Shown one piece after another: positions 9,498 to 64,000 of a stretch of 64,000 nucleotides of DNA (the first letter of the stretch is position 1; each line of letters starts with the position of its first letter). This stretch comes from Cellulosimicrobium protaetiae (GTDB lineage Bacteria; Actinomycetota; Actinomycetes; Actinomycetales; Cellulomonadaceae). Where the stretch lies: positions 2,232,001 through 2,296,000 of the forward strand of contig NZ_CP052757.1 of NCBI RefSeq assembly GCF_009708005.2, given 5' to 3'. The notes beneath the pieces were generated by a model. The model was not told the DNA's origin. It did no database searches and worked only from the letters and a program-made list of their open reading frames with translations. The position numbers were made by a program, and so were the translations under genes.

Positions 9498-9543
9498 GCA
9501 CGACGAGGGGCGCCGTCCGGACGGACGGCGCCCCTCGTCGTGC
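9498..9543. terminator. Strong bidirectional terminator
   Basis: A perfect 20-bp stem (9498-9517 with 9524-9543) closes on the 6-nt loop CGGACG. It lies between the convergent aldo/keto reductase and the zinc-ribbon gene and can serve both. Confidence 0.85.
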
Positions 9544-25416: not shown

Positions 25417-25552
25417 GCTCCGATTCTACGCTTGTGAAAGAGTGCACTAAGTGTGCGGTGCGTCACGGGCGTGCGTCACACTTTCGCGGGACGAACGTCC
25501 CGAGCGGCACAGGCCGGACGTCTCACCCTGCACGGAAGGACCCCGATCTCGC

Positions 25553-25615
25553 CGAGGTGGAACCGTGGTCGCGCGAGGTAGAACCTTGGTCGGTCGAGGC
25601 AGAACCGTGGTTCTT
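25553..25615 (+). repeat. 21-bp repeat array 1 (three units)
   Basis: Three head-to-tail 21-bp units of the type GAGGTAGAACCGTGGTCGCG. They share the core G(T/C)(A/G)GAACC-T/G-TGGT. They form one arm of composite element A, which continues through a 30-bp linker into the hairpin at 25646. Units differ at a few fixed positions, so the array is not a recent perfect amplification. Confidence 0.85.
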
Positions 25616-25645: not shown

Positions 25646-25744
25646 GGGCGGGGTGGGTGGTGGTGCCGCGTCTACCATCCGCCGCTCGTTCCTCGCGGCT
25701 CCCGCCAGGCCCGCCACGACGCGGCACCACCACCCACCCCGCCC
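25646..25744 (-). repeat. Palindromic hairpin element, copy A
   Basis: Perfect 27-nt complementary arms (25646-25672 and 25718-25744) enclose 45 nt. In the reverse orientation, the enclosed core contains CCGC-GAGGAACGA-GCGG, a nested mini-hairpin, and ends CGGATGGTA. The same core is found at 38313-38357 and 56577-56622. The outer arm is G-rich (GGGTGGGCGGGGTGGG at 25642-25657) and could form a G-quadruplex. Confidence 0.9.
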
Positions 25745-37206: not shown

Positions 37207-39918
37207 TCAGCGGTCTAGCCTCGCGGGCTCCTCGCGCACGACGTCGGTCGGCGCCTTGTCGCGCCGCCACCCCTTCCACACGGGGTGCCGCAGCTTGCCG
37301 AACGGGATGTCGTCCGCCTCGCCCTCGCCCGGCCCCGTCCACTCGGCGTAGACCACCTCGGCGACCCGGCGTGGGGAGACCCAGCGCGCGTCGCGCGCGT
37401 CCTCGCGCGGGACACCCGTCGCGGGCGGCGTCGTGCGCTCGATCCGGCCGAGCTCGGCGACGAGGTCGCGCCGCTCGGCGTCCGTGAAGCCCGACCCGAC
37501 GCGCCCCACGTACACCAGCCGGTCGCCGTCGGGCACGGCGAGCAGGAGAGAGCCCATCAGGTGCGTGCGGTCGCCGTGCCCCGGGCGCCACCCGACGACG
37601 ACGACCTCCTGCGACTGTGCGTGCTTGAGCTTGAGCCAGAGCGCCGACCTGCGGCCCGACGAGTACGTGCCGTCGCGCCGCTTTGCGACCACACCCTCGA
37701 GCCCCAGCCGTTTCGACGTGTCCAAGGCGGCGTCGAGGTCGCCGTCGAACGCGGGAGGTACGTGGACCGGCGCGTGCGCGTCGCCCAGCACGTCCTCGAG
37801 GATCTCGCGCCGCTCGTCGTAGGGGCGCTTCGCGAGGGAGCGCCCCGCCGTCTCCAGGACGTCGAACACCATGAGGTCGACCGTGACCCGGCGCCGCGCG
37901 GCGGCGACGTCCGCCGGCTTGGCGATGTTCGCGCGCTGCTGGAGGCGCCGGAAGCTCGGCCGCCCCTGCGCGTCGAGCGCCACGATCTCGGCGTCCAGCA
38001 CGACCGGCAGCGCCTCGGCCGGGACCTGCTCGGCGAGCGCCTGCAGCTCCGGGTACGTCACCGTCATGTCCTTGCCCGAGCGGCTCACGAGCCGCACACG
38101 GCCCTCGGACACGTGCGCGAGCGCCCGGAACCCGTCCCACTTCATCTCGAAGGCCCAGTCGTCGCCGTCGTGCAGGTCGCCCGCCGACGCGGGCGACGCG
38201 AGCATGGGCCGCCAGTCCGTCCGAGCCGGCGCTGGCTCGTCGTGATCGTGGCCGGGCGACACCCCGCGGCGAGGCGACGACGAAGCGGGGGGTGGGGAGG
38301 AGGTGCCGGGTCGTGGCGGGCCTGGCGGGAGCGGCGAGGAACGAGCCGCGGATGGTAGACCCGGCGCCTCCTCCCCACCCCCCGCGCCCCGACCCCCGCC
38401 CTGGCCCTGACCCTGCGGTCTTCCGCCCGCCCGGCCCGGCTTCGGCGCCATGAGGTGGATGAGCCAGTTGTCCTCGTCGCGGCCGTCGCGGCCGCCCGTG
38501 TGGATGAGGGCGAGCCGGCGCGTGCCGTGCTGCTCGCCGTGGAGGGTGACGATGACCTCCTTGCCGTCGCGCCACTTCTCCAGCTCGTACGTGCCGGCGT
38601 CCCAGATGGTCACCTCGCCCGCGCCGTACTCGCCCCGCGGGATCGTGCCCTCGAACGCCCCGTAGGCGAGCGGGTGGTCCTCGGTCTGCACGGCGAGGTG
38701 GTTCTTCTTCGGGTCGGTGGGCTCGCCGCGGGGGAGCGCCCAGCTCACGAGGACGCCGTCGTGCTCGAGCCGGAAGTCCCAGTGCAGGCGTCGGGCGTGG
38801 TGCTCCTGGATGACGAAGCTGTTGCCCTCGCTCGCCGGTGGCGCCTCGTCGGGCACGGGCTCGGGCGTGCGCCGGGCGTCGCGCATGGAGCGGTAGCGGT
38901 GCAGGCGGTCGGGCCGCTCGTCGTCGCTCCCCGTCCCGGTGCCCTCCGCGCCGTCGCTGCCCGACGTCGCGGCGCCCTTGCGCTCGAACGTCGCCATGCG
39001 CTCGGGCGTGGGCTCGAGCGCGGAGAGGTGGCCCAGCGTGAGCGCCGCGAGCGGGTCGCCGATGGTCCGCACGCGCTCGACGACCTCGTCGGCGTCGAGG
39101 TGGCTCAGGTCCGGGTCGTCGAGCTCCTCCCACGTGCGGGGCGCGGCGACGGTCGGGTGCTCGCGCCCGCGCAGCGAGTACGGGGCGATGGTCGTCTTGT
39201 TGCCGTTGTTCTGGCTCCAGTCGACGAGCACCTTGCCGCCGCGCAGCGACTTCTTCATGTCGCTCACGACGAGGTCGGGGTGCTCGGCCTCGAGGTAGCG
39301 CGCGAGCTCGTGCGCGACGGCGGACACGGCTGCGGCGTCCTGCTTGCCGTCGAGCGCGGCGTACAGGTGGATCCCCTTCGAGCCGCTCGTCACGGGCAGG
39401 GGTTCGAGGCCCATGCCCTGGAGGATCCGGCGGGCCAGGCGCGCGACCTCGGCGCACTCGGGCAGCCCGGCGCCCGGGCCGGGGTCGAGGTCGAGCACGA
39501 GCCGGTCGGGGTTCAGGTGGACGCCCGTGCGGCCGAACTGCCACTGCGGCACGTGCAGCTCGAGCGACGCCGTCTGGCCGAGCCACGTGAGCGTGGCCAG
39601 GTCGTTGACGAGCACGTAGTCGTTCGCGCTGCTCTTGTGCTGGATGCGGCGCGTACGCACCCACGACGGCACGCCCTGCCCGGCGTTCTTCTGGAAGAAC
39701 ACCTGCCCGTCGACCCCGTCCGGCCAGCGCTTGCGGGTCGCGGGGCGGTTGGCGCAGTGGGGGAGCATCACGTCGGCAACGGCGGCGAGGTACGCGAGGA
39801 CGTCCGCCTTGGTCGTCCCCGTGGCGGGGTACAGGACCTTGTCGAGGTTCGTGAGCCGCAGCCGGTGGCCACCGACGCTCACCGTCTCGCCCGCGCTGCG
39901 GCTCGATGAGGTGGCCAT
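37207..39918 (-). CDS. ligD: Multifunctional DNA ligase D (polymerase, phosphoesterase, ligase)
   Basis: 903 residues from ATG 39918. Domain order: primase/polymerase (about 15-310, HLNPDRLVLDLDPGPGAG, SGSKGIHLYAAL and DWSQNNGNKTTIAPYS); 3'-phosphoesterase (about 345-490, HHARRLHWDFRLEHDG and PRGEYGAGEVTIWDAG); ATP-dependent ligase (about 560-890, nucleophile Lys593 in EMKWDGFRAL). All active sites are present, so this is a complete non-homologous end-joining LigD. The Pro/Gly/Ser linker at residues about 512-545 is encoded by hairpin copy B. Its partner Ku is encoded 5 kb away at 45218. Confidence 0.95.
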   Translation of the reverse strand: MATSSSRSAGETVSVGGHRLRLTNLDKVLYPATGTTKADVLAYLAAVADVMLPHCANRPATRKRWPDGVDGQVFFQKNAGQGVPSWVRTRRIQHKSSANDYVLVNDLATLTWLGQTASLELHVPQWQFGRTGVHLNPDRLVLDLDPGPGAGLPECAEVARLARRILQGMGLEPLPVTSGSKGIHLYAALDGKQDAAAVSAVAHELARYLEAEHPDLVVSDMKKSLRGGKVLVDWSQNNGNKTTIAPYSLRGREHPTVAAPRTWEELDDPDLSHLDADEVVERVRTIGDPLAALTLGHLSALEPTPERMATFERKGAATSGSDGAEGTGTGSDDERPDRLHRYRSMRDARRTPEPVPDEAPPASEGNSFVIQEHHARRLHWDFRLEHDGVLVSWALPRGEPTDPKKNHLAVQTEDHPLAYGAFEGTIPRGEYGAGEVTIWDAGTYELEKWRDGKEVIVTLHGEQHGTRRLALIHTGGRDGRDEDNWLIHLMAPKPGRAGGRPQGQGQGGGRGAGGGEEAPGLPSAARSSPLPPGPPRPGTSSPPPASSSPRRGVSPGHDHDEPAPARTDWRPMLASPASAGDLHDGDDWAFEMKWDGFRALAHVSEGRVRLVSRSGKDMTVTYPELQALAEQVPAEALPVVLDAEIVALDAQGRPSFRRLQQRANIAKPADVAAARRRVTVDLMVFDVLETAGRSLAKRPYDERREILEDVLGDAHAPVHVPPAFDGDLDAALDTSKRLGLEGVVAKRRDGTYSSGRRSALWLKLKHAQSQEVVVVGWRPGHGDRTHLMGSLLLAVPDGDRLVYVGRVGSGFTDAERRDLVAELGRIERTTPPATGVPREDARDARWVSPRRVAEVVYAEWTGPGEGEADDIPFGKLRHPVWKGWRRDKAPTDVVREEPARLDR
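38285..38385 (+). repeat. Palindromic hairpin element, copy B (inside ligD)
   Basis: 28-nt arms (38285-38312 and 38358-38385) pair at 27 of 28 positions, with G-T at the exception. They enclose 45 nt matching copy A except for two paired changes in the mini-hairpin: CGGC-GAGGAACGA-GCCG in place of CCGC...GCGG. It adds about 34 codons to the ligD linker without a stop or frameshift. The arms themselves differ from A and C but in a complementary way. Confidence 0.9.
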
Positions 39919-40099
39919 GGGCCCATCGTGGCGCGCACGGGACGGCGCCGCCCGCGGGGCGGGGCCGGACGCGGGACCAAGGGCCCTGTCCGCGGGCCGT
40001 CGCGGGAACTTCCCGGCGCCCCCGACCGTGCACACTGGAGGAGGCGGCCCGACCGGACCGGGAGGACCGCCGTGACGAAGCAGGACCGAGAGGAACACC

Positions 40100-40873
40100 G
40101 TGACGCACCTGACGACCGACGACGTCCCGCCGTCCGGGGAGATCCGTCCCCGGGTGCGCGAGTTCCGCCGGCTGATGATGACGTACAAGTTCGGCATCGA
40201 CGAGGTGATGACGAAGATCACCGTCCTGCGCGACGAGTTCCGGCACATCCACGACTACAACCCCATCGAGCACCTGGGCTCGCGCCTGAAGTCGATCGAC
40301 TCGATCTTCGCCAAGGCGCAGCGCAAGGGGATCCCGATCACCCCGGAGGGCGTGCGCGAGAACATGTTCGACGTCGCGGGCGTGCGCGTGACGTGCAGCT
40401 TCGTCTCCGACATCTACCGGGTGCGCGACATGCTCGTCGGCCAGCGCGACCTCACCGTGCTGGAGGAGCGCGACTACATCGCGCACCCCAAGGGCAACGG
40501 GTACAAGAGCCTGCACCTCATCGTGAAGGTGCCGGTCTTCCTCTCGGACCGGGTCGAGGACGTCGTCGTGGAGATCCAGCTCCGCACCATCGCGATGGAC
40601 TTCTGGGCGAGCCTCGAGCACAAGATCTACTACAAGTACCAGCGGGAGGTGCCCCAGCACCTCACCGACGCCCTCAAGCTCGCGGCCGACGTCGCGGCGA
40701 CGCTCGACACGACCATGGAGCGCATCCACGACGAGGTCCGCGAGCTGGACGGCGCGGCCGAGCCCGTCGAGACGACGGACGCGCTCGTGTCCCCGCGCGA
40801 GATGGTCGAGAGCTTCATGCGCACGGTGCAGGTCGCCGACGAGGCGTTCCACGATCGCCGCCGCGACGGCTGA
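40100..40873 (+). CDS. Small alarmone synthetase (GTP pyrophosphokinase family)
   Basis: 257 residues from GTG 40100, with GAGAGG upstream. RelA/SpoT synthetase domain: FRHIHDYNPIEHLGSRLKS, FDVAGVRVTCSFVSDIYRV and HPKGNGYKSLHLIV, then VEIQLRTIAMDFWASLEHKI. The HD hydrolase, TGS and ACT regions of long Rel proteins are absent, so it is a YjbM/RelP-type small synthetase making (p)ppGpp from GTP or GDP and ATP. It should raise stress signalling without a ribosome. Its divergent neighbour is ligD. Confidence 0.93.
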   Translation: MTHLTTDDVPPSGEIRPRVREFRRLMMTYKFGIDEVMTKITVLRDEFRHIHDYNPIEHLGSRLKSIDSIFAKAQRKGIPITPEGVRENMFDVAGVRVTCSFVSDIYRVRDMLVGQRDLTVLEERDYIAHPKGNGYKSLHLIVKVPVFLSDRVEDVVVEIQLRTIAMDFWASLEHKIYYKYQREVPQHLTDALKLAADVAATLDTTMERIHDEVRELDGAAEPVETTDALVSPREMVESFMRTVQVADEAFHDRRRDG

Positions 40874-54833: not shown

Positions 54834-56129
54834 ATGACCGACCGCACCACGCCCGCGCCCCCGGCCGGCGCGACCGCTCCGAGCCCAGGACGGTTGCGCG
54901 GGGCAGGCCCCGCGCTCCTCGCGCTCGCGATGGGCGGCTTCACCATCGGCACCACCGAGTTCGCGACGATGGGCCTGCTCTCCGACATCGCGACCGACCT
55001 CGACGTCTCCATCCCCACCGCGGGCCACGCGATCACGGCCTACGCCGTCGGGGTCGTCGTCGGGGCGCCGCTGCTCACCGTCGTCGCCGCACGCCTGCCG
55101 CGCAAGACGCTGCTCGTCGCCCTCATGGCGTTCTACACGCTCGGGAACCTGTTCTCCGCGACGGCGGGGAGCATCGAGACCCTCGTCGCCGGCCGGTTCC
55201 TCGCGGGACTGCCGCACGGCGCGTTCTTCGGTGTCGGCGCGGCGGTCGGTGCCGCCGTGGCCGGTCCGGGACGGCGCGGACGAGCCGTCGCGACGATGAT
55301 GGCCGGGCTCACCATCGCCAACGTCGTCGGCGTCCCGCTCTCGACCTTCGCCGGGCAGCAGCTCGGCTGGCGCGCCGCGTTCGTCGTGGTCGGCGCGCTC
55401 GGCCTGGTGACGCTCGCCGCCCTGTGGTGGCTGATCCCGGCCGGCGCGGGCAACGAGGACTCCAGCGTGCGCCGCGAGCTCGGCGCGCTGCGCAACGGGC
55501 CGCTCTGGCTCGGGTTCGTCGGTGCCGCGGTCGGGTTCGGCGGCATGTTCGCCGTCTACTCCTACGTCGAGCCGACGATCACGCGCGTCACCGGGCTGTC
55601 GTCCGCCGCGGTGCCGCTCGTGCTCGCGATCTTCGGCGTCGGCATGACCGTCGGCACCGTGCTCGGCGGCCGCCTCGCCGACCGCTCGGTCATGCGCACC
55701 GTCTACCTCGGGTTCGTCTCCACCGGCGTGACGCTCGCGCTGTTCGCCCTCACCGGGCAGCACCCCGTCCCCGCCGTGCTGTCGCTCTTCCTGCTCGGCG
55801 TGACCTCCCAGGTCCTCGGCCTCGCGCTGCAGACGCGCCTCATGGACCTCTCGCCCGCCGCGCCCTCGCTCGGCGCGGCCCTGTGCCACTCCGCGCTCAA
55901 CGTCGGCAACGCGAACGGGGCCTTCCTCGGCGGCCTCGTCATCGCCGCCGGCTGGGGCTACCTCGCCCCGGCCTGGACCGGCGTCGTCCTCACCGCCGCC
56001 GGCCTCGGGATCATCCTCCTCGTCGGCCGCCGCCCGGCCGGCGTCGTCGTCGCCACCCTGCCGAACGCCACCCAGCCGGACGACGCCCCGGCACCCGCCG
56101 AGACCACCACCCCCGCCCTGCCGAAGTAG
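54834..56129 (+). CDS. MFS transporter (DHA1, Cmx/AraJ-like)
   Basis: 431 residues. It starts with FTIGTTEFATMGLLSDIATDL, the hallmark of DHA1 sugar-efflux/chloramphenicol exporters (AraJ/CmlR/Cmx). Other motifs are PHGAFFGVGAAV and GRLADRSVMRT (motif A of the second half). Twelve helices are visible. The final codons CCG AAG TAG coincide with the first 21-bp repeat unit: the repeat supplies the stop. The protein end is Thr/Pro/Ala-rich. A perfect palindrome in its promoter suggests regulation. The substrate is not known. Confidence 0.92.
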   Translation: MTDRTTPAPPAGATAPSPGRLRGAGPALLALAMGGFTIGTTEFATMGLLSDIATDLDVSIPTAGHAITAYAVGVVVGAPLLTVVAARLPRKTLLVALMAFYTLGNLFSATAGSIETLVAGRFLAGLPHGAFFGVGAAVGAAVAGPGRRGRAVATMMAGLTIANVVGVPLSTFAGQQLGWRAAFVVVGALGLVTLAALWWLIPAGAGNEDSSVRRELGALRNGPLWLGFVGAAVGFGGMFAVYSYVEPTITRVTGLSSAAVPLVLAIFGVGMTVGTVLGGRLADRSVMRTVYLGFVSTGVTLALFALTGQHPVPAVLSLFLLGVTSQVLGLALQTRLMDLSPAAPSLGAALCHSALNVGNANGAFLGGLVIAAGWGYLAPAWTGVVLTAAGLGIILLVGRRPAGVVVATLPNATQPDDAPAPAETTTPALPK

Positions 56130-56248
56130 AACCGTGGTCGCGCGAGGTAGAACCGTGGTCGCGCGAGGTAGAACCGTGGTCGCGCGAGGTAGAACCGTGG
56201 TCGCGCGAAGTAGAACTCTGGTTCGCCGAGGTAGGACTCTTGGTCGGG
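56123..56248 (+). repeat. 21-bp repeat array 4 (six units)
   Basis: Six head-to-tail 21-bp units. Units 2-4 are identical (GAGGTAGAACCGTGGTCGCG plus one base), unit 1 has GAAG for GAGG, and units 5-6 diverge. The TAG of unit 1 is the stop codon of the MFS gene. There are no spacers, so this is a tandem array and not CRISPR. Confidence 0.92.
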
Positions 56249-56549: not shown

Positions 56550-56649
56550 GGTCGGGGTGGGTGGTGGTGCCGCGTCGTGGTCGGGCCTGGCGGGAGCCGC
56601 GAGGAACGAGCGGCGGATGGTAGACGCGGCACCACCACCCACGCCGACC
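56550..56649 (+). repeat. Palindromic hairpin element, copy C
   Basis: 27-nt arms (56550-56576 and 56623-56649) pair at 26 of 27 positions. The 46-nt centre matches copy A, with one extra T near its start, and keeps CCGC-GAGGAACGA-GCGG. It is oriented opposite to copy A and the same as copy B. Confidence 0.9.
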
Positions 56650-56715: not shown

Positions 56716-58012
56716 GGTCTCAACTGGTCATCGCAACATCCTGATTCGAGGGGTGTTTTCGGATGGTGCGTGGTGGGGTGTCGGTGCCGCGGCAGTGGCG
56801 GCGGGAGTTCTGGCGGGCGTTCGTCGATGGCGTGCCTGTGGTCGCGGCGGCCGCGGGGGTGGGCGTGTCGACCCGCACGGTGCAGGCCTGGATCGCTGAG
56901 TCTGGCGGGGTGCCTGATATCGATCTCGCCGCGCCCACGGGCCGGTTCGTGTCGTTCGAAGAACGCGAGCGGATGGCGTTGCTGCGTGCCGAGGGTCATT
57001 CGTACGCGGCGATCGGGCGGCGGCTGGGCCGTCCACGCTCGACGATCTGGCGTGAGTTGACCAACCCGGGCCGGCGGGCGAGCGATGGTCGGTATGTGCC
57101 CTCGGTCGCGCAGGCCCACCGCGACCGGCAGGCCGCGCGTCCCAAACAGGATCGGCGCAAGCTCGCGCTCGACCCGCGCCTGGCGGGCTATGTCTGCGAC
57201 CGGCTGGACGGCACCGTGCGACCGGACAGCCGCCGCGCACGGGTGTGGAGCCCGCAGCAGATCGCGAACCGCCTCCCGGTCGACTTCCCCGATGATGAGT
57301 CGATGCGGATCAGTCACGAGGCGATCTATCAGGCGTTGTATGTCCAGGGCCGTGGCGGGCTGCGCGCCGAGCTGCACACCGCGCTGCGGACCGGACGCGC
57401 CCGCCGCCGCCCTCGGGCCCAGGCCCGCACCAAGCGTCAGGGGCAACGCCTGCTACCGCCCGATGTCCTGATCAGCGAACGCCCGGCCGAGATCGCCGAC
57501 CGCGCCGTGCCGGGCCACTGGGAGGGCGATCTGATCATCGGTGCCGGCAACAAGTCCGCGATCGGGACCCTGGTCGAGCGCAGCACCCGGTTCGTGATGC
57601 TGCTGCACCTGCCGCACGGCTACGCCGCCGAGCAGGTCGCAGAAGCGATGCGGACCAAGATCCGGGCCCTGCCCGAGCACCTACGACGCACCCTCACCTG
57701 GGACCGGGGCCGAGAGATGACACCGAACGTCGGCATCGACATCGGATTCACCGATCCCATCGACCTGTTCTTCTGCGACCCGCACGCACCCTGGCAGCGC
57801 GGCAGCAACGAGAACACCAACGGGCTCCTACGCCAGTACTACCCCAAAGGCACCGACCTGTCCGTGCACCCCGCATCCGACCTCGAAGACGTCGCAGACG
57901 CCCTCAACACCCGACCCCGCCAAACCCTCGGCTGGGCCACCCCCGCCGAGAAGCTCGCCGCGCTACTCTCACCAACCTGACCAACCCGATGTTGCGATGA
58001 CCGGTTGAGACC
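56716..58012 (+). mobile_element. IS30-family insertion sequence
   Basis: About 1.3 kb with 25-bp terminal inverted repeats (56716-56740 and 57988-58012) that match at 24 of 25 positions; the outer end is GGTCTCAAC. It holds one complete transposase gene. It splits a 21-bp repeat array. I see no convincing target duplication directly outside the inverted repeats. Confidence 0.92.
56763..57980 (+). CDS. IS30 family transposase
   Basis: 405 residues. An N-terminal HTH (VVAAAAGVGVSTRTVQAWIAESG) is followed by the IS30 HTH_38 motif (RMALLRAEGHSYAAIGRRLGRPRSTIWRE). The catalytic core has Asp in GHWEGDLIIG, Asp in TWDRGREM and Glu in NENTNGLLRQYYPKG, the DDE triad with the usual 33-residue spacing of the family. 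The gene is intact, so the element may be active. It lies inside terminal inverted repeats. Confidence 0.96.
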   Translation: MVRGGVSVPRQWRREFWRAFVDGVPVVAAAAGVGVSTRTVQAWIAESGGVPDIDLAAPTGRFVSFEERERMALLRAEGHSYAAIGRRLGRPRSTIWRELTNPGRRASDGRYVPSVAQAHRDRQAARPKQDRRKLALDPRLAGYVCDRLDGTVRPDSRRARVWSPQQIANRLPVDFPDDESMRISHEAIYQALYVQGRGGLRAELHTALRTGRARRRPRAQARTKRQGQRLLPPDVLISERPAEIADRAVPGHWEGDLIIGAGNKSAIGTLVERSTRFVMLLHLPHGYAAEQVAEAMRTKIRALPEHLRRTLTWDRGREMTPNVGIDIGFTDPIDLFFCDPHAPWQRGSNENTNGLLRQYYPKGTDLSVHPASDLEDVADALNTRPRQTLGWATPAEKLAALLSPT

Positions 58013-58014
58013 AA

Positions 58015-58098
58015 GGTTCTACCTCGCGCGACCACGGTTCTGTCTCGCGCGACCAGAGTTCTACGTCGCGCGACCACGGTTCTATCTCGGCGACGAGT
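58015..58098 (-). repeat. 21-bp repeat array 5, right part
   Basis: Four further units (58015, 58036, 58057 and 58078), in the same orientation as the fragment at 56688. Together they show that the IS30 element entered an existing array of at least five units. Confidence 0.88.
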
Positions 58099-62445: not shown

Positions 62446-62502
62446 TGAGTGCATGAAATAGTCGCGTCCGACCTGCTCGGGCGCGACTATTTCATGCACT
62501 CA
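62446..62502. repeat. Hairpin repeat 1 flanking the DUF559 gene
   Basis: Perfect 21-bp arms at 62446-62466 and 62482-62502, beginning TGAGTGCATGAAATAGTCGC, enclose a 15-nt loop. The arms are identical to those at 63476-63532. The terminal TGA of the right arm (reverse strand) is the stop codon of the DUF559 gene. The arms are more AT-rich than the surroundings. It also lies 12 bp after leuS and can terminate it. Confidence 0.93.
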
Positions 62503-63405: not shown

Positions 63406-63475
63406 GCCGACCGAGGATGCCGCCCGCTCCGACCCAGCGAAACCCCGCCCCCCGCGGCTGTGGACAACCACACCG

Positions 63476-63532
63476 TGAGTGCATGAAATAGTCGCGCTCA
63501 CCAGGCCCGGACGCGACTATTTCATGCACTCA
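63476..63532. repeat. Hairpin repeat 2 flanking the DUF559 gene
   Basis: Arms at 63476-63496 and 63512-63532 have the same 21-bp sequence as repeat 1. The 15-nt loop differs, but when one copy is inverted the two loops share CGGA at the same end. The pair therefore behaves as inverted copies around one gene. This copy lies between the DUF559 promoter region and the HerA-like gene. Confidence 0.93.
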
Positions 63533-63543
63533 GCGAGTCAAGG

Positions 63544-64000
63544 TCAGCGGCGGCGCGTGCCGAAGATGGTGCGGGTGAGCTCGCGGCCGAGCTGGGTGCC
63601 TGCCGAGCGGAGGAACGAGTCGAGCGGGTTCGCCGGGCGGGAGCGCGACGAGCCGGACGAACCCGACCCGGACTGGGGCTTCGCGGCGTCGCGCTCGAGC
63701 TTCGCGCGCATCTTCTCCAGCTCGGCCTGCTCCTTCTTGGCCGCGCGCTCGGCCTCCCTGGCGGCCTCCTTCGCCGCCTTCTCCTGGGCGGCCGCCTCGG
63801 CCTCGGCGGCCGCAGCGGCGGCACGGGCGGCGGCCTGCTCCTGCACCCTGACCTGCAGCAGCTCGAACGCCGACTCGTTGTCGACCGCCGTCCCGTAGCG
63901 CGCGAACCCGGGGGACGCCGCGACGATCCCGTCGAGCACGGCCGCGGGCGCTGGCTCCATCGACGACTGCGGCGCCCGCACGCGGGTCCAGGCCACCGGG
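63544..64000 (-). CDS. HerA-like helicase (DUF853), C-terminal part
   Basis: The 5' end lies outside the window; about 152 residues are visible. VAWTRVRAPQSSMEP matches the conserved C-terminal part of YjgR/DUF853 ATPases (relatives of HerA). A long charged helix rich in Ala, Glu and Lys follows (about 60 residues, likely coiled coil), then NPLDSFLRSAGTQLGRELTRTIFGTRRR, the family's usual end. The ATPase motifs lie upstream and cannot be checked. Confidence 0.88.
   Translation of the reverse strand, partial: PVAWTRVRAPQSSMEPAPAAVLDGIVAASPGFARYGTAVDNESAFELLQVRVQEQAAARAAAAAAEAEAAAQEKAAKEAAREAERAAKKEQAELEKMRAKLERDAAKPQSGSGSSGSSRSRPANPLDSFLRSAGTQLGRELTRTIFGTRRR

Follow-up and report, generated by a model that had tools for sequence, protein, structure and literature searches.

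To our knowledge, the majority of palindromic repeats in bacteria are conserved at the ends and loose in the centre, and those that are best known depend on a Y1 transposase. In MITEs, ERIC and Correia elements, the terminal repeats are the conserved part. Integron attC sites form a bottom-strand hairpin 3′ of a gene, with arms that are variable but paired, and are conserved at the base and variable at the tip. For REP and REPIN sequences, dispersed palindromes associated with RAYT (TnpA_REP), the single-strand hairpin is likely the active form, according to a passage of PMC8266576. Rickettsia palindromic elements, as presented in an excerpt of PMC10969869, are palindromes of ~150 bp that lie in frame inside unrelated genes and are reported to encode a conserved peptide.

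The element analyzed here is a hairpin of ~100 nt that occurs three times in the window (the whole 64,000-nt stretch of Cellulosimicrobium protaetiae DNA that was analyzed). We read it as a dispersed bacterial palindromic repeat, set apart by a fixed centre, free arms and a fold on one strand. From the palindromic repeats described above it departs in that the centre is fixed rather than the ends and in that no Y1 transposase was found in its carriers. It shares with REP and REPIN the form of dispersed palindromes, and differs from them in its fixed core with free arms, its length, its long stem and the lack of a Y1 transposase in 40 genomes. As with Rickettsia palindromic elements, copies are inserted in frame in unrelated genes, including that of LigD, but the peptides and frames differ across host genes. 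Like bacterial MITEs, ERIC and Correia elements, it is small, multi-copy and patchy among strains; unlike in MITEs, the arms vary freely across the family around the fixed centre and are common only within a major subfamily of 35 copies. Relative to attC the pattern of conservation is reversed, and copies are dispersed whereas attC sites are arrayed. Its covarying stems and conserved loops resemble those of structured RNA families in Rfam, but no Rfam model matched at its gathering score in a search of the window, and at a lax threshold copy B returned microRNA models only (best E 0.049, 21.9 bits versus a gathering score of 150). No description of the element was found in open-licence PubMed Central papers, searched with few terms per query, or in the excerpt of the MITE review PMC10969869.

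Candidate partner genes were searched with protein profiles. The Y1 (HUH) transposase profile PF01797 matched none of 40 genomes, 22 of them carriers of the element, while 5 of 14 control genomes were positive, and a Y1 transposase was rejected as partner. Reverse transcriptase (PF00078) was present in 4 of the 22 carriers (G032, G065, G118 and G154) and 2 of the 18 non-carriers (G004 and G015), and was not found in the element's own genome; with only 4 of 22 carriers positive, a reverse transcriptase partner or a retroelement product (group II intron, retron) was rejected. Neither a REP-type nor a retro-type partner fits the element.

Structure of the window copies and the folded strand

The dimensions and positions given for the three copies in the first-pass annotation were borne out by an inverted-repeat search of the window: copy A has arms of 27 nt that are 100% complementary and a spacer of 45 nt, copy B has arms of 28 nt (96% complementary) and a spacer of 45 nt, and copy C has arms of 27 nt (96% complementary) and a spacer of 46 nt. 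Copy A lies on the minus strand relative to copies B and C; when it is read on that strand, all three run as arm, GTC, GTGG(N)NGGGCCTGGCGGGAG, mini-stem, GAGGAACGA, mini-stem, CGGATGGTA, GAC, arm. The parts are as follows:

25646..25744, minus strand: copy A, major subfamily, with arms 25718-25744 and 25646-25672 and a 45-nt core
25686..25694, minus strand: apical loop GAGGAACGA of copy A, closed by the mini-stem 25682-25685 / 25695-25698
38285..38385, plus strand: copy B, with unique arms, within the ligD reading frame and antisense to ligD
38313..38331, plus strand: 5′ conserved core strand GTGGCGGGCCTGGCGGGAG of copy B, from an alignment of 48 sequences
38332..38348, plus strand: covarying mini-hairpin CGGC-GAGGAACGA-GCCG of copy B, apex at 38336-38344
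38349..38357, plus strand: 3′ conserved core strand CGGATGGTA of copy B, from the same 48-sequence alignment
56550..56649, plus strand: copy C, major subfamily, apex at 56601-56609

The paired differences described earlier between the copies are present in the window sequence, namely the matched arm change GCCGCGTC/GACGCGGC to GCCGGGTC/GACCCGGC, the arm change GGTGGTGG to GAGGAGG, and the mini-hairpin change CCGC/GCGG to CGGC/GCCG. The apex, which had been called constant, is so within the window, where GAGGAACGA is identical in the three copies, but it varies family-wide: 48 diverse copies have GAGGNACGA (40), GACGAAGGA (3), a shortened form (1) or other tips (4; L097, L098, L100 and L111). 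Among 87 copies collected by pattern, the apex is GAGGAACGA in 43, GAGGGACGA in 20, GAGGCACGA in 19, GAGGTACGA in 4 and GACGAAGGA in 1, and two loci of another family (L313 and L314) have a longer hairpin between GAG and CGA. The usual apex GAGGNACGA may be read as two sheared G·A pairs, one G-C pair and a GNA triloop; an arrangement of G·A, A·G and G-C (or C-G) under a GNA triloop would explain both the free position and the paired change of G-C to C-G. In the 5′ core strand, TGG, GGG and CTGGC are invariant or nearly so in the 48 sequences. The fold of the core strand comprises a long stem (median 27 bp, free in sequence but paired), an internal loop TGG(N)NGGGYCTGGCGGGAG / CGGATGGTA, a variable mini-stem and the usual cap. 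That the ACGA of the loop might pair with a TCGT at the base of the arm was considered by eye and dropped, as the TCGT side varies while the loop does not, and a resemblance to 5S rRNA words was also dropped.

The RNA fold of one copy has an energy of -84.4 kcal/mol (z = -9.8), and 0 of 200 dinucleotide shuffles were as low. Covariation was scored in two sets of copies. In 14 copies from the own genome, 99.4% of cells pair, 18 of 25 pairs have a both-sided change, and the covariation score is 0.538, compared with 0.115 for shuffled sequences and at most 0.139 for slid partners. The corresponding values for the 48 diverse copies, drawn from many genera and gathered with a model that has this same structure and so favours paired arms, are 93.5%, 23 of 25 pairs, and 0.694 compared with 0.166 and at most 0.132; the observed pairing, number of both-sided changed cells and score were equalled by 0 of 500 shuffles, and the 23 pairs with both-sided change by 7 of 500. 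Arm differences therefore keep pairing in both sets, and the selection on folded RNA or single-stranded DNA that the first-pass annotation had suggested is supported by the covariation, the types of mismatch and the folding energies.

For mismatches, folding energies, gene positions, in-ORF counts and comparisons of homologous flanks, copies were collected with a pattern requiring the apex G(A/G)(G/C)GNA(C/G)GA or a narrower one, so that copies with other tips are left out; the collection held 153 distinct copies, 9 of which were set aside for poor arms. Arm mismatches were counted over 1226 pairs, the inner 14 bp of 89 distinct arms, and 96.9% of these pairs are Watson-Crick. Read on the core strand, the mismatches there include 14 G·U and 2 A·C, where composition predicts 3.9 and 3.8. 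By arm position, G·U and A·C number 8 and 0 at positions 0-10, 10 and 7 at positions 10-20, where the bias is weak, and 21 and 5 at positions 14-30; mini-stems have 9 G·U versus 2 A·C (41 distinct stems). G-A mismatches in the first one or two positions of an arm mostly reflect a register artefact and were disregarded (of 14 G-A within the inner 14 bp, 13 fall in the first 10). The core strand folds with the lower energy in 85 of 87 copies with RNA parameters and in 87 of 87 with DNA parameters. Because G·U exceeds A·C on this strand and its folding energy is better, the G-rich core strand is probably the folded one, as RNA or single-stranded DNA.

Copies in the own genome and spread among genomes

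A covariance model (R1) built from the 14 own-genome copies matched the 4.78-Mb genome 59 times at E ≤ 0.01, and a DNA search with copy C found at least 40 distinct places (40 of 136 candidates were scored). Thirty-five loci with similar arms and common flanks form the major subfamily, which includes copies A and C, while the remaining own-genome copies, copy B among them, have arm sequences of their own. That the element has multiplied, to 35 similar copies in this genome, is well supported. Alignment of the 35 copies showed no sharp ends to the unit. In three weak copies (L250, L251 and L252) the core is interrupted.

The surroundings of copies A and C contain the following:

25549..25611, strand not assigned: 21-bp array adjoining copy A
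56122..56246, strand not assigned: 21-bp tandem array CGAGGTAGAACCGTGGTCGCG to the left of copy C, consensus of 35 copies
56778..57980, plus strand: IS30 family transposase gene (NF033563) adjoining copy C
58009..58094, strand not assigned: 21-bp repeat in inverted orientation, to the right of copy C and the IS30 gene

The 21-bp repeat is GACCACGGTTCTACCTCGCGC and its complement; its arrays adjoin copies of the major subfamily and are inverted around copy C. As these arrays adjoin its copies, the repeat unit of the major subfamily is a larger composite. At another locus (L125, 3914-4091) a partial element of ~63 bp occurs three times in tandem, adjoining runs of N and C, and is possibly an assembly artefact.

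Further copies, which had been expected in related genomes, were found in other genera and families. R1 matched 38 of 121 genomes of the family, in 11 of 25 genera. A second covariance model (R2), used for the order and phylum, matched 24 of 297 order genomes, which belong to six families and 14 of 95 genera; both counts include the own genome. In the phylum sample R2 matched 1 of 296 genomes, the own genome only; searches of more than 40 genomes used stricter filters, with which weak copies may be missed. In a pattern scan of named genomes, Cellulosimicrobium made up the majority of the 80 matches listed of at least 120, with 3 from Luteimicrobium and 4 from records titled Sphaerisporangium cinnabarinum, and several matches have flanks in common with own-genome copies. 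The copies under the last name lie in records of S. cinnabarinum ATCC 31213 (L122, L131, L155 and L193); the flanks of L131 are homologous to those of an own-genome locus (L236), and the record is probably mislabelled.

Position relative to genes and constraint on resident copies

Neighbouring genes were classified with a rough GC3 gene caller, and orthologous copies were counted apart. The 64 intergenic copies with unique arms were tandem antisense (29), convergent (26), tandem sense (9) or divergent (0). The zero depends on the stricter gene caller, since a laxer pass that allowed short ORFs gave 11 divergent copies among 159, major-subfamily copies included (tandem antisense 68, convergent 46, tandem sense 31). 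For the 29 tandem antisense copies, the median distance from the core to the stop of the antisense gene is 58 nt. Elsewhere in the order, 20 loci in other families comprise 14 that are intergenic, 5 within ORFs and one (L309) without a clear assignment. At 13 of these 14 the gene on the right runs antisense and has its end at the element, the other (L311) being tandem sense; the in-ORF loci are antisense at L306, L315 and L317 and sense at L308 and L310. Unique-arm copies therefore adjoin gene 3′ ends or sit in ORFs, antisense more often than sense. Copies of the major subfamily do not obey this orientation rule: 15 of them were convergent (9), tandem sense (2), tandem antisense (1), inside a gene (1) or without a class (2), and copies A and C in the window are sense to their neighbouring genes.

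Two sites recur in several genera, one between nrdE and nrdF and one between infB and rbfA, and both are also occupied beyond the family, infB in f17 (L321) and nrdE in f13 (L316). NrdE, NrdF, IF-2, YebC and IlvC were named by profile search, and RbfA and others were read from the sequence. At the nrdE site the core is present in 11 of the 30 best-matching family genomes, with one more decayed, and at the infB site in 6 of 15 from the genus. In the own genome the nrdE site has the element and the infB site lacks it. Judged by eye, a separate hairpin follows the infB stop codon in 14 of the 15 genomes, with or without the element, and sites of either kind without the element often bear another hairpin. 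Insertion of the core into pre-existing hairpins was unsupported, as the core-less nrdE and infB sites have unrelated stems. The hairpin at element-less nrdE sites in genomes of the genus (L254, L255 and L258-L261) has the form GTCGGCCAC...GTGGCCGAC with a variable tip, and is perhaps a second repeat family. The own-genome nrdE copy (L242/L256) matches a copy from another genus (L089, genome G116) in arms and near flanks, rather than that of the sister species, and recombination may have transferred it.

Within ligD, copy B is in frame and falls between the phosphoesterase and ligase domains:

37207..40248, minus strand: gene for ATP-dependent DNA ligase LigD (NF007210)
Amino acids 449-598 of LigD: phosphoesterase domain, profile match to TIGR02777
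Amino acids 693-1004 of LigD: ligase domain, profile match to TIGR02779

A check of 16 in-ORF loci gave rows for 13, of which 11 were antisense and 2 (L135 and L310) sense; a rougher count of 32 copies gave 21 antisense and 11 sense, some of the ORFs being spurious. In-frame copies occur in LigD and in other unrelated proteins, orthologues included, which we take from their sequences to be an NHL-type protein, a RecB-like protein, a P-type ATPase and an HrpA-like helicase. The host genes use different frames, and the peptide read through the element differs among them. A coding function was rejected on this account, and because the peptide varies, it is the nucleic acid that is kept.

Change in place was followed in 28 clusters whose copies have homologous flanks; a further cluster, with more than 12 members, was left out. 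Mean identity was 96% for the core (22 positions), 81% for the arms (36 positions), 67% for the flanks and 56% for shuffled flanks. Both-sided Watson-Crick changes outnumbered other arm changes in 16 clusters and were fewer in 9; three of these nine (led by L085, L116 and L119) look like register or assembly trouble, and the remaining six have little beyond a single one-sided change. Over 92 copy pairs, which are non-independent within a cluster, there were 270 both-sided and 129 one-sided changes. It is well supported that resident copies stay constrained, with pairing kept at homologous positions, and likewise that the element is a real family of dispersed ~100-nt hairpins in some Actinomycetales whose copies are constrained in place.

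Candidate functions of the element

With the fold on the mostly antisense strand, a sense minority in operons and ORFs, and no divergent copies under strict gene calls, the simplest single reading would be a core strand that acts once it is transcribed and is tolerated or useful mainly in antisense. From the sequence comparisons we tentatively propose a dispersed hairpin family whose core strand, active once in RNA, would end or process transcripts running in the core direction. A sense-oriented element would then cut operons and ORFs, and most copies there would for that reason be antisense; between convergent genes and at gene 3′ ends, it could keep antisense or convergent transcription out of the gene. 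We infer here that the core strand is transcribed, as well as its effect and any protein partner. A fuller version is somewhat unlikely, namely that the fixed-core hairpin represents a class of strand-specific cis elements of Actinomycetales. Such elements would lie mostly antisense at gene 3′ ends or in ORFs and shield genes from transcription coming from the wrong side; duplication would have spread them, and selection would keep them in place.

The main rival to a role in transcription is a slightly less likely possibility. It takes the element to be non-autonomous and mobile, the single-stranded DNA hairpin of the core strand being the substrate of an unrecognised trans-acting recombinase or transposase; the core would be the recognition site, as in REP/REPIN or attC, and position and orientation would result from the insertion mechanism or from purging. 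The 35 similar copies, the variable presence after infB (6 of 15 genus genomes) and nrdE (11 of 30, one more decayed), the in-frame copies within ORFs and the confinement of the fold to one strand speak for such an element, and GNA triloops are stable in DNA hairpins. It fits less well with the lack of a Y1 transposase in the 40 genomes, 22 of them carriers, and with the distribution of reverse transcriptase, found in 4 of the 22 carriers but not in the own one. In addition, the arms, which would be its ends, differ among copies outside the major subfamily, and pairing is kept by resident copies at homologous positions, something that mobility by itself does not demand.

The other explanations are less probable. 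Template switching (quasipalindrome correction) is known in bacteria and might, during replication, be the main process keeping the arms complementary, with only the core selected or recent; this is unlikely, for although it accounts for the near-perfect pairing of arms even when wholly different in sequence (96.9% over the inner 14 bp), G-U predominates among the leftover mismatches on one strand (14 to 2 and 9 to 2), and the unpaired core is common to families whereas the arms are not. In another reading, the element serves the sense gene as an ordinary transcription terminator or mRNA stabiliser, the core forming its loop. This would suit the start of the arm at a median of ~41 nt past the stop codon (55 copies, range -3 to 135) and the other hairpins often found at element-less infB and nrdE sites. 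It is quite improbable given a loop of ~45 nt, a sense strand that is less stable and carries the A-C form of most mismatches, the copies within ORFs, and the separate hairpin that precedes the element after infB. By analogy with gyrase-bound BIMEs, the element might also be a chromosomal site that is bound, as duplex or cruciform, by a nucleoid or topology protein; its 3′-end position and dispersed copies resemble those of REP and BIME sequences, but strand asymmetry of mismatches is unexpected for a duplex or symmetric cruciform, 273 of the 297 genomes of the order had no match, and we regard this as very unlikely. As its stems change, the element retains its fold in place, and its orientation is strongly biased. 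It offers a testable case either of an unrecognised RNA element acting on antisense transcription, as tentatively proposed, or of the substrate of an unrecognised single-strand recombinase.

Other inverted repeats were observed in the window. Strong repeats at 62446-62502 and 63446-63562 have TGAGTGCATGAAATAGTCGCG in common, and a perfect 22-bp hairpin with a 2-nt spacer at 9498-9543 is perhaps an ordinary strong terminator.
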